Part shown: one piece after another, positions 22,371-29,437 of the stretch
Numbering within the stretch: position 1 is the stretch's first letter
Layout: every line of letters starts with the position of its first letter
DNA from: a virus
DNA length: 29,437 nucleotides
Virus record (IMG/VR): IMGVR_UViG_3300042924_004134
Coordinates: 1 to 29,437 of that record
Strand: one strand, 5' to 3'
The notes under the pieces: generated by a model
Database searches by the model: none
The model's input: only the letters and a program-made list of their open reading frames with translations
Told to the model about the DNA's origin: nothing
Translations under genes and position numbers: made by a program

Positions 22371-22444
22371 AGTCCTGTAGCTCAGGTGGATAGAGCAACT
22401 GCCTTCTAAGCAGTAGGTCCTTGGTTCGAATCCAAGCAGGACTA
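22371..22444 (+). tRNA. tRNA-Arg (anticodon TCT)
   Basis: All four arms are present: acceptor AGTCCTG / CAGGACT (7 bp), D arm GCTC...GAGC, anticodon stem ACTGC / GCAGT around the loop CTTCTAA with TCT at 22405-22407, and T arm CTTGG-TTCGAAT-CCAAG. The discriminator base is A, and CCA is not encoded, so the host must add it. The anticodon reads AGA, which is a common Arg codon in this phage. It starts 6 nt after the stop of the upstream gene. Confidence 0.97.
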
Positions 22445-22476
22445 CTATTTTTATTGTTTAATTTAAATTTATGATT

Positions 22477-25861: not shown

Positions 25862-26956
25862 ATGACAAAAGATAAAGTTCAATTAGAAGCATTAGCTGCA
25901 ACTGATGGACAAAAAAGATGTAGTGTGGTTTTAGGTACTGGTGTAGGAAAGACTCTTGTAGGTCTCAATCATATAGAACGTAATACTACTCCATTGATGA
26001 AAGTCCTAATTGTTGCTCCAAAAAAAGCAATCTTCCAATCTTGGAAAGATGATGCAGAAAAATTTGGAAAAGAATATTTATTAGGTAGAATGGTATTTAC
26101 TACTTATCTAAGTTTGAATAAACATAATCCTAATGACTATAATGCTGTCTATTTAGACGAAGCTCATAGTTTGTTAGACAGTCACCGGGGATTCTTACAG
26201 TTATATACTGGTAAGATTTTGGGTTTGACTGGCACTCCTCCTAAGAGAGGTTATTCAGAAAAAGGTAAGTTAGTAAATGAATTCTGTCCTGTAGTATATA
26301 CATTCAAAGCAGATGATGCTGTGGAGAATGGAATACTAAATGATTATCAGATTATTGTCCACAAACTTGAATTATCTAAAGAAAAGAATTATGTAGTTAA
26401 TCAAGGTGGTAAGAAATGGTTAACTGATGAAGAATCAAACTATATTTATTGGTCTAGAAGAATTGATGTAGGATCTGGAAATATGCACATGCTTAGAGTT
26501 ATGAGAATGAAAGCACTTATGGAATATCCTAGTAAAGAAAAGTATACTAGAATTTTAATGAATAGTATACAGACTAAGTGTATTGTGTTTGCTAATACTC
26601 AAGCTCAAGCTGACTTACTATGTGAATATAGTTACCACAGTGGTAATAAACAGTCTGAAGATAATTTACTATTGTTTAAAGAAGGAAAGATTAATAAACT
26701 CTCTACTGTATTGCAGTTAAATGAGGGTGTTAATATTCCTAATCTTAAACAGGGTATTATTATGCATTCATATGGTAATGAAAGAAAAGCAGCTCAAAGA
26801 ATTGGTAGATTACTAAGACTTAATCCAGATGATAAAGCAATTGTACACATACTATGTTATATGGATACAATTGATGAGAAATGGGTTACTGAAGCTCTAG
26901 AAGGATTTGATCAGAGTAAAATAATGTGGAAAGATTTTGGGGTTAAATTAGATTAA
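25862..26956 (+). CDS. SF2 helicase (DEAH box)
   Basis: A 364-aa superfamily-2 helicase. Visible motifs are I, LGTGVGKT (residues 24-31), which binds ATP; II, LDEAH (98-102); III, GLTGTPP (121-127), with the T-G-T motif; V-like, LNEGVNIPNL (286-295); and VI, QRIGRLLR (312-319), with the arginine finger. Both RecA-like lobes are present, so the protein is complete but compact. An apparent Q-motif region is at the N-terminus (VQLEALAATDGQKR). Similar short helicases such as UvsW act in replication restart and recombination, and the neighbouring HNH protein fits this. A structured leader precedes it, and a terminator overlaps its stop. Confidence 0.9.
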   Translation: MTKDKVQLEALAATDGQKRCSVVLGTGVGKTLVGLNHIERNTTPLMKVLIVAPKKAIFQSWKDDAEKFGKEYLLGRMVFTTYLSLNKHNPNDYNAVYLDEAHSLLDSHRGFLQLYTGKILGLTGTPPKRGYSEKGKLVNEFCPVVYTFKADDAVENGILNDYQIIVHKLELSKEKNYVVNQGGKKWLTDEESNYIYWSRRIDVGSGNMHMLRVMRMKALMEYPSKEKYTRILMNSIQTKCIVFANTQAQADLLCEYSYHSGNKQSEDNLLLFKEGKINKLSTVLQLNEGVNIPNLKQGIIMHSYGNERKAAQRIGRLLRLNPDDKAIVHILCYMDTIDEKWVTEALEGFDQSKIMWKDFGVKLD

Positions 26957-26960: not shown

Positions 26961-26985
26961 TTAATTTTTCGTATATTGGAGTTAT

Positions 26986-27240
26986 ATGGAAGATTCAAAA
27001 ACACATAAATTAGTATTGTATAATGATGATGTTCATGATTTTTTATATGTAGTGGCATGTCTTATAAGACATTGTAAACATGAACCATTACAAGCTGAAC
27101 AATGTGCTATTATAACTCATAACAAAGGTAAATGCTCTGTTAAAACTGGTGATTTTCTAGAAATGTTAGAAATTAAAACTAACTTAGAAGAACTAGAATT
27201 ATTAACAGAAATTGAAGCCTATGAAAGTTATATGCATTGA
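26986..27240 (+). CDS. clpS: ClpS-like N-degron adaptor
   Basis: An 84-aa protein that matches ClpS along nearly its whole length. The hallmark LYNDDVHDF gives Asn13-Asp14-Asp15, equivalent to the Asn-Asp-Asp that holds the N-terminal amino group of a substrate. A Phe (19) stands at the position of the E. coli gate Met. A helix with EQCAIITHNKGKC supplies the conserved His45, and the following VKTGDFLEML is the next helix. Bacterial ClpS passes proteins with destabilising N-termini to ClpAP or ClpCP. The N-terminal tail before the core is only about 8 residues, shorter than in E. coli ClpS, which may alter delivery to the protease. The gene overlaps the next one by 20 nt and follows a terminator, so the unit begins here. 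Confidence 0.85.
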   Translation: MEDSKTHKLVLYNDDVHDFLYVVACLIRHCKHEPLQAEQCAIITHNKGKCSVKTGDFLEMLEIKTNLEELELLTEIEAYESYMH

Positions 27241-27490
27241 TTCAAGTAAAAAACCAGCAAAAATATCATCAGATGAATGGATACAAGAAGGTATAGTTTA
27301 TACAGTTGTTGAAGTTGTCAATATGGGTCTGCAACAAGGTAGACTTGGAGTCCGATTAAAAGAAGTGGCTCTATCAGAAAAATCATTCCCTTATGAGTAC
27401 TATGACAGCAGTAGATTTCTTCCTATAGAAGGATTAATTGCTGAAGTAGAAAAAGTAAAGGAAGAAGAAGTTGAATTAGATCTTATTTAA
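27221..27490 (+). CDS. Hypothetical protein next to ClpS-like gene
   Basis: An 89-aa protein from the ATG at 27221 (MKVICIDSSKKPAKISSDEW); an ATG 9 nt earlier at 27212 is possible. The sequence looks like a small beta barrel: VICID strand, WIQEGIVYTVVEVVNMGLQQ, and a FPYEYYDSSRFLP turn, with a charged Glu/Lys tail. I recall similar short proteins with this opening in Bacteroidota phages but no function. It overlaps the ClpS-like gene by 20 nt and is followed by the HTH gene after 1 nt, so these are likely co-expressed. Confidence 0.75.
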   Translation: MKVICIDSSKKPAKISSDEWIQEGIVYTVVEVVNMGLQQGRLGVRLKEVALSEKSFPYEYYDSSRFLPIEGLIAEVEKVKEEEVELDLI

Positions 27491-28388: not shown

Positions 28389-28777
28389 AAGACGTAATTT
28401 TAGCCCTTATGTTGGGCACAGCATTTTGTTATGAATTAGTTGTATTTATTAAAGCTAGAGGTTATGTAAGAGTTTTTTACAAAACAAAACATAGTGAAGA
28501 AGATGATAAAGCAGTTAAATTTGGAGTGGGTTGTTTCTCATTAATTTATTTAGTATTCTTAATATTAGGAATGGCTATTAGTGAGTTGTGGTATGTCTAT
28601 TTATTTATATTTGCTTTGTCAATTATACAAAGTCCAATAAGTAAATATTTAAAAAGAAGAAAATATTGGGAGACATTAGTGCAATTTAAAAGATTAGATT
28701 CTGCATTATCAATGGGAACTATTGTATTTTTATTCTTTTCACATTTTCATCCAGAAGTATTAAACTGGATATGGTAA
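28385..28777 (+). CDS. Multi-span membrane protein
   Basis: A 130-aa hydrophobic protein with about three to four membrane segments: near the N-terminus (VILALMLGTAFCYELVVFIK), the middle (FSLIYLVFLILGMAISELWY) and the end (LSMGTIVFLFFSHFHPEVLN). Charged loops lie between them (TKHSEEDDKAVK and SKYLKRRKYWE). It starts with a 4-nt overlap and shares its stop with the start of the radical-SAM gene. No family recognised. It might modify the host membrane or partner the small protein upstream. Confidence 0.7.
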   Translation: MKDVILALMLGTAFCYELVVFIKARGYVRVFYKTKHSEEDDKAVKFGVGCFSLIYLVFLILGMAISELWYVYLFIFALSIIQSPISKYLKRRKYWETLVQFKRLDSALSMGTIVFLFFSHFHPEVLNWIW

Positions 28778-29437
28778 TTCAAAAAGTTACTAGAAAATCT
28801 ATGATCATAAGACCAAGTGGGAGGAGTACTGATTTTATCAGTCCCTCCTTTGGTCATGGCTGTTTGTATAACTGTACTTACTGTTATATGAAAAGACATA
28901 AGCCGGAAGGATTATCTGTAGCTACAAATACTATGGATATCCTGACAGAGATTAATTCACATGCATATTTCTCTACTGTAGAGAAACCAAATCAAACAGG
29001 AGAGTATGTAACTTATGATATTTCATGTAATGAAGACTTTGCTCTGCATGCAAAATATCATGACTGGAAAACAATCTTTGCATTCTTCAGAGATCATCCA
29101 CTTGCTATGGGTTCATTTGCTACTAAATATGTAAATAAGGACCTTTTAGATTTTAATCCAGAAGGTAAGATTAGAATAAGATTTAGTCTTATGCCTGAAA
29201 AATGGAGAAAAGTTTTAGAACCTAATACAAGTGCAATTGATTTAAGATTAAATGCAGTACCTAGATTTCTTGATGCTGGATATGAAGTTCATTTAAATTT
29301 TAGTCCAGTTATAGTTCATGATCTTTGGCTTACAGAGTATGAATTTTTATTTCACTTAGTTAGTAGACATGCTAATATAAATGGATGGGATACTAGAGAT
29401 GTGAAAGCTGAAGTAATATTCTTGACTCATAATGAAC
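28771..29437 (+). CDS. Radical-SAM protein, spore-photoproduct-lyase-like (5' part)
   Basis: Open to the right edge (222 codons, no stop); the C-terminus is outside the window. Start is the ATG at 28771, overlapping the previous stop. It contains FGHGCLYNCTYCYMKRHKP, giving Cys31-x3-Cys35-x2-Cys38, which binds the [4Fe-4S] cluster of radical-SAM enzymes, followed by YITDN-type radical-SAM features in weaker form. The CxxxCxYCY block with the following segments (YDISCNEDFALHAKYHDWK and FATKYVNKDLLDF) looks like the spore photoproduct lyase family, which repairs thymine lesions. DNA repair would suit a phage, but some members have other roles, so the substrate is uncertain. Confidence 0.75.
   Translation, partial: MVIQKVTRKSMIIRPSGRSTDFISPSFGHGCLYNCTYCYMKRHKPEGLSVATNTMDILTEINSHAYFSTVEKPNQTGEYVTYDISCNEDFALHAKYHDWKTIFAFFRDHPLAMGSFATKYVNKDLLDFNPEGKIRIRFSLMPEKWRKVLEPNTSAIDLRLNAVPRFLDAGYEVHLNFSPVIVHDLWLTEYEFLFHLVSRHANINGWDTRDVKAEVIFLTHNE

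Follow-up and report, generated by a model that had tools for sequence, protein, structure and literature searches.

A ClpS-like adaptor without its N-terminal tail in environmental phages related to the crAss-like phages of Bacteroidota

Environmental phages of a large group, relatives of the crAss-like phages of Bacteroidota, carry a form of ClpS, the bacterial adaptor that passes proteins to a protease, from which the N-terminal tail is missing; selection has retained it in well over a hundred phage contigs. A second small gene lies beside it wherever it occurs, and the protein probably blocks or redirects the proteolytic machinery of the host. The copy at the centre of this study lies at positions 26986-27240 on the plus strand of the window, by which we mean the whole stretch of DNA analysed, a 29.4-kb virus fragment (29,437 nucleotides; IMG/VR record IMGVR_UViG_3300042924_004134). 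It runs from an ATG at 26986 to a stop codon ending at 27240 and encodes a protein of 84 amino acids. Our preferred explanation, to which we would give a probability of roughly 45%, is that this protein is a docking-competent but delivery-deficient ClpS, capping or competing at the N-domain of the host unfoldase ClpC, perhaps together with the product of its neighbour gene, g27221.

The initial annotation, made from the letters of the DNA, had proposed a ClpS-like adaptor and was to be abandoned should the ClpS fold or the pocket residues prove missing; the fold is predicted and the Asn, Asp and His of the pocket are present. The protein belongs to the ClpS family PF02617 with E=1.9e-14, and, with a score of 53.6 bits where 23 would suffice, this identity stands far above chance. 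An AlphaFold (AF2) model, given 34 relatives as input, reached a mean pLDDT of 92.4 and a pTM of 0.80, with strands at residues 7-12, 49-55 and 73-78 and helices at 19-29, 34-47 and 57-69. When this model was compared with the PDB using Foldseek, the top matches were ClpS structures, with E-values down to 1.1e-6 and with ClpS of Mycolicibacterium, E. coli, Caulobacter, Arabidopsis and Agrobacterium as the best folds; 38 matches had E<=0.001, and all chains among them that could be identified by their description were ClpS. Engineered TPR proteins headed a sequence-based search of the PDB and were rejected, their scores being sums of weak repeats in which no single stretch was significant. The model also drew weak matches in a library of viral structures to proteins of the gut crAss-like phages cr1_1, cr10_1, cr50_1, cr56_1 and cr126_1, which are uncharacterised or resemble the L7/L12 C-terminal domain, a fold related to that of ClpS.

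The first core residue of the phage protein, His7, aligns with Tyr28 of E. coli ClpS and is preceded by six residues (MEDSKT, 26986-27003, plus strand), standing where other ClpS proteins carry an extension of about 20-26 residues. The shortening had been noticed beforehand and holds for all 76 distinct relatives compared, although the remnant had been put at about 8 residues. Six residues precede the core in 73 of these sequences and five in the other three, so that the long disordered N-terminal extension of delivery-competent ClpS is absent throughout, and the distance from the starting Met to the Asn of the NDD motif is 12 in nearly all phage relatives. A wider set of 91 unique sequences, drawn from loci anchored on g27221 (the best 80 of 337 and the best 80 of 238 matches), gave a distance of 11 or 12 in 85 cases and of 13 in four, the remaining two being truncated. 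By comparison, E. coli ClpS has 33 residues between its start and this Asn, including an N-terminal extension of 26, and in most of the Bacteroidota (flavobacterial) hosts sampled an ATG lies 26-36 residues before it, the starts being read from the sequence. A mis-called start codon was rejected as the source of the short tail: an in-frame stop occupies 26962-26964, no ATG, GTG or TTG lies between it and the ATG of the gene, and the length is kept over the 76 distinct sequences. In a minority of relatives the frame is open upstream of the same ATG, and the sequence there is not conserved.

Scans of IMG/VR yielded first 20 and then 122 stretches coding for relatives of the phage ClpS. The ratio dN/dS between the window copy and its relatives is mostly 0.15-0.45, and over 723 pairs with dS of 0.1-1.2 the pairwise median is 0.31, which points to purifying selection on the gene. 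A tree built from 108 sequences unites the 76 phage proteins in a single clade (support 100/88), neighboured by the ClpS of a 636-kb huge phage and by a further viral protein (L021), with ClpS of Bacteroidota around them; the deep forks are weak because the alignment has only 84 columns. Parsimony on this tree needs a single change in tail length, that is, the tail was lost once. A scan of genome contigs for cellular relatives returned one match, a host ClpS from a Flavobacterium MAG. The phage lineage may have acquired a ClpS of Bacteroidota type and subsequently lost its N-terminal extension.

The residues that would receive an N-degron tell a less uniform story. By alignment, Asn13-Asp14-Asp15 (27022-27030, plus strand) correspond to E. 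coli Asn34-Asp35-Asp36, His45 (27118-27120, plus strand) to His66, and Phe19 (27040-27042, plus strand) to the gate residue Met40; the NDD, the His, a Phe at the gate and the length of 84 residues had all been given in the initial annotation. The window copy therefore holds every one of the residues whose E. coli equivalents (N34, D35-D36, H66) contact the alpha-amino group. Across the 76 phage sequences Asn13 and Asp14 are invariant and the third position is Asp in 51, while the position of His45 holds His in 60, Asp in 15 and Asn in one. The pocket His, kept in 22/22 Bacteroidota host ClpS, has thus been lost repeatedly: it is missing from 16/76 sequences, and the tree requires at least 8 state changes at this site (L109 is one relative without it). 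Binding of N-degrons is therefore not the property that the family has preserved throughout. The gate position carries Phe in 49, Tyr in 26 and Met in one; as Phe is also found in all 22 host proteins, we rejected the gate Phe as a phage adaptation and ascribe no phage-specific meaning to it. The phage family as a whole preserves the fold and the lack of a tail but not the entire N-degron pocket, which speaks against plain delivery of N-degron substrates as the function its members share. At the E. coli ClpA-contact residues Glu79, Glu82 and Lys84 the comparison is ambiguous, as helix 3 of the phage protein aligns in two registers, and Lys84 is not conserved in Bacteroidota host ClpS either.

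These patterns bear on two further readings. The phage protein could be a working N-degron adaptor that merely adds to the activity of host ClpS, served by a ClpC that delivers without a long tail; the intact Asn13, Asp14, Asp15 and His45 of the window copy agree with this, as does the proposal by Iyer et al. (PMC7824862) that ClpS of jumbo phages recruits targets for host ClpAP, but we consider it unlikely, since the tail is gone across the family and the pocket His has disappeared repeatedly, neither of which is seen in the 22 host proteins. Alternatively, the protein might bind N-degrons on phage or host proteins, such as new N-termini exposed by proteolysis, and protect them by non-delivery, with no need of ClpC. 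E. coli ClpS that lacks the pocket His binds N-degrons poorly, and phage members without it would be expected to do likewise; no target is known, and this role seems very doubtful to us even though a conserved Asn-Asp pair, a His in most members and a missing tail would all suit it.

The ClpS gene does not travel alone. Its last 20 bases (27221-27240, plus strand) are also the first of g27221 (27221-27490, plus strand), an obligate neighbour encoding 89 amino acids with a predicted fold that is weakly SH3-like, and directly upstream in nearly all loci is a superfamily-2 helicase gene (25862-26956, plus strand; phrog_16, 1.5e-40), which served as the syntenic anchor. The order helicase, ClpS, g27221 recurs in nearly all loci, and in most syntenic ones g27221 starts at an offset of +235 relative to the start of ClpS. 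We discarded the idea that the neighbourhood serves defence, since the PADLOC matches are confined to the helicase domain of the gene upstream. The C-terminal ESYMH of ClpS is likewise not claimed as a functional motif, because the start of g27221 overlaps it and partly dictates its conservation.

Linkage between the two genes, which the initial annotation had singled out for checking, is complete in every locus examined: among 79 helicase-anchored loci, 67 have both genes, none has either one alone and 12 have neither, and ClpS is present in 151/151 loci anchored on g27221. The latter come from two scans (the best 80 of 337 and the best 80 of 238 matches, so that g27221 relatives further removed may occur without ClpS) and represent at most 144 contigs, some being counted twice. 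Three syntenic loci (L094, L095, L126) lack the two genes together but keep the flanks, a homologue of g27492 following directly after the helicase; the pair is thus dispensable in some backgrounds. In another (L070) an ORF resembling a GIY-YIG endonuclease (L070:5485-6204) sits between ClpS and g27221 and both are retained; the overlap is therefore not the sole tie between them.

Because of this obligate partner, the main rival to our preferred explanation is a re-aimed adaptor in two parts, in which tail-less ClpS and g27221 would together bring new cargo, for instance host defence or regulatory proteins, to ClpCP. Here g27221 would supply a cargo site or the missing engagement with the channel, in a layout that might resemble, by analogy, that of chloroplast ClpS1-ClpF. 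Strict co-occurrence, joint absence from loci with preserved flanks and survival of the pair across an insertion all point this way. Against it, the 20-base overlap by itself favours joint loss, and g27221 has no detectable relation to the YccV domain of ClpF or to any Pfam family. We found neither a Pfam nor a PHROG family for it and no match in the phage collection searched; its AF2 model (pLDDT 85) comes closest in the PDB to an SH3 domain, at a non-significant E=0.22, and an HspQ/YccV (ClpF-like) domain was rejected for want of either a Pfam or a fold match. On balance we regard the re-aimed adaptor as possible but fairly unlikely.

Judged by its terminase and portal, the phage is crAss-like in the wide sense: TerL is 24-26% identical to those of cr1_1, cr55_1 and cr130_1, the portal 28% to that of csAssE-Sib and 33% to that of Leptolyngbya phage Lbo-JY46, and the two proteins together 22-33% to those of crAss-like, Cellulophaga and Flavobacterium phages and of one Leptolyngbya phage, the capsid gene lying outside the window. 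The crAss-like link suggested at the outset holds at this distance only. The fragment also carries a tRNA-Arg (anticodon tct) at 22371-22445 and, at 28771-29436 and cut by the window end, a radical-SAM gene related to spore photoproduct lyase (TIGR03886, 218 bits; PF20903, 73 bits) that is syntenic in many relatives. On the bacterial side, 195 of 198 Bacteroidota genomes encode their own ClpS. None of 21 Bacteroidota genomes has a protein above the curated ClpA cut-off and all 21 have Hsp100 relatives; the partner in the putative Bacteroidota host is therefore probably ClpC-like and not ClpA. Sixteen long phage relatives (records of 76-123 kb, perhaps incomplete) contain no gene for Clp_N, ClpP or L/F-transferase, so we rejected service to a phage-encoded ClpC/ClpP or L/F-transferase; if it acts on any Clp protease, the phage ClpS must act on the machinery of the host.

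Biochemists make core-only ClpS in order to tell docking and delivery apart, and Hou et al. reportedly found in 2008 that the E. coli core alone binds ClpA without delivering. The tail of E. coli ClpS is bound in the ClpA channel, where pulling on it drives substrate transfer and where blocking its entry inhibits delivery (PMC9663308). We propose that the shortened phage protein would still be able, through its fold, to dock on the N-domain of the host's two-ring Hsp100 unfoldase (ClpC-like in Bacteroidota) but, lacking a tail that could enter the channel, would sit in the adaptor site and pass on no cargo. In an infected cell it would push host ClpS aside and cap ClpCP, so that phage proteins, or proteins of the host that serve the phage, would escape degradation by way of their N-degrons. 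Always made with ClpS, g27221 would be a partner that stabilises it, supplies cargo or adds a second contact.

Such a cap or decoy would agree, as far as the sequences can tell, with a tail fixed at 5-6 residues across the family and with a pocket His that has been lost time and again. Further support comes from the ClpS fold and profile, from the published part that the tail plays in delivery, from the absence of Clp_N, ClpP and L/F-transferase genes in the 16 long relatives, from the host ClpS of nearly all Bacteroidota genomes and from purifying selection. E. coli ClpS suppresses ATPase activity and inhibits degradation of ssrA substrates, effects attributed largely to its tail. In Leptospira, docking of ClpS on the N-domain alone is needed to inhibit the ClpA ATPase and ssrA-substrate degradation (PMC12493166), a point in favour of the cap. 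Inhibition in both species was seen with tailed ClpS, and a tail-less form may be a weak inhibitor, which counts against the cap; so do the invariant Asn13-Asp14 and the His45 kept in 79% of members, for which a pure cap has no obvious need, and the chance that Bacteroidota ClpC may deliver without needing a long tail. A ClpS core occupying the adaptor site of the host unfoldase is the most economical reading of the mechanism.

If it is correct, these phages possess a naturally evolved core-only ClpS. Whether by capping or by re-aiming, they would hold a natural inhibitor or redirector of ClpCP in Bacteroidota, and g27221 would gain its first function. More tentatively, and at less than even odds, tail-less ClpS and g27221 could form a dedicated two-gene module that captures the ClpC adaptor site. 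The phage would then make the N-degron protease serve its infection, and a widespread crAss-like lineage would have a new mechanism directed against the host or its defences. A general question would also become testable, namely whether phages exploit the N-degron proteolysis of their hosts or shut it down. The literature searched contained no work joining ClpS and crAss-like phages and none on an N-degron pathway in Bacteroidota; within it, the tail-less two-gene form, its prevalence in one lineage and the linked gene appear undescribed.

Phage-encoded ClpS itself has already been reported in jumbo phages (PMC6102473, gp708; PMC7824862); the jumbo or huge phages that encode it include Atu_ph07, PA5oct, Phosso, GAP32 and LR756504. 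Unlike the proteins described here, those of Phosso, PA5oct and LR756504 keep their tails, with 25-29 residues from the start to the NDD Asn (25 in Phosso, 26 in PA5oct), whereas those of GAP32 and Kaldavass have a different N-terminal domain; no g27221 partner was found for jumbo- or huge-phage ClpS in the phage collection. A ClpS-like protein of Vibrio phage 2.275.O (L202, CDS 592-948), outside the lineage, starts 12 residues before the Asn and has Asp at the His site, possibly a convergent loss of the tail. The ClpS assigned to Acinetobacter phage MD-2021a (CAKLQH020000043.1, L206) was left uncounted, as it adjoins clpA, lies near bacterial ClpS and is probably bacterial contamination. In chloroplasts ClpS1 is paired with a second small factor, ClpF (PMC7966870), a likeness to our gene pair by analogy only, since ClpF and g27221 have no sequence relation. 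E. coli ClpS (1MBU, 3O2B, 2WA8) shares with the phage protein its fold and the positions of the pocket Asn, Asp and His, but is only about 20% identical, carries the 26-residue extension absent from the phage and works with ClpA. Closest of all are the ClpS proteins of Flavobacteriaceae, the nearest cellular clade, which are up to 54% identical and have the same domain, gate Phe, QAEQC motif, NDD and His. They differ from the phage proteins in a tail of about 20 residues as against 6, in helix 1, where VID(T/S)L stands in place of V.ACL, and at the C-terminus, where the host protein ends with the core and the phage protein continues into a conserved stretch overlapping g27221.
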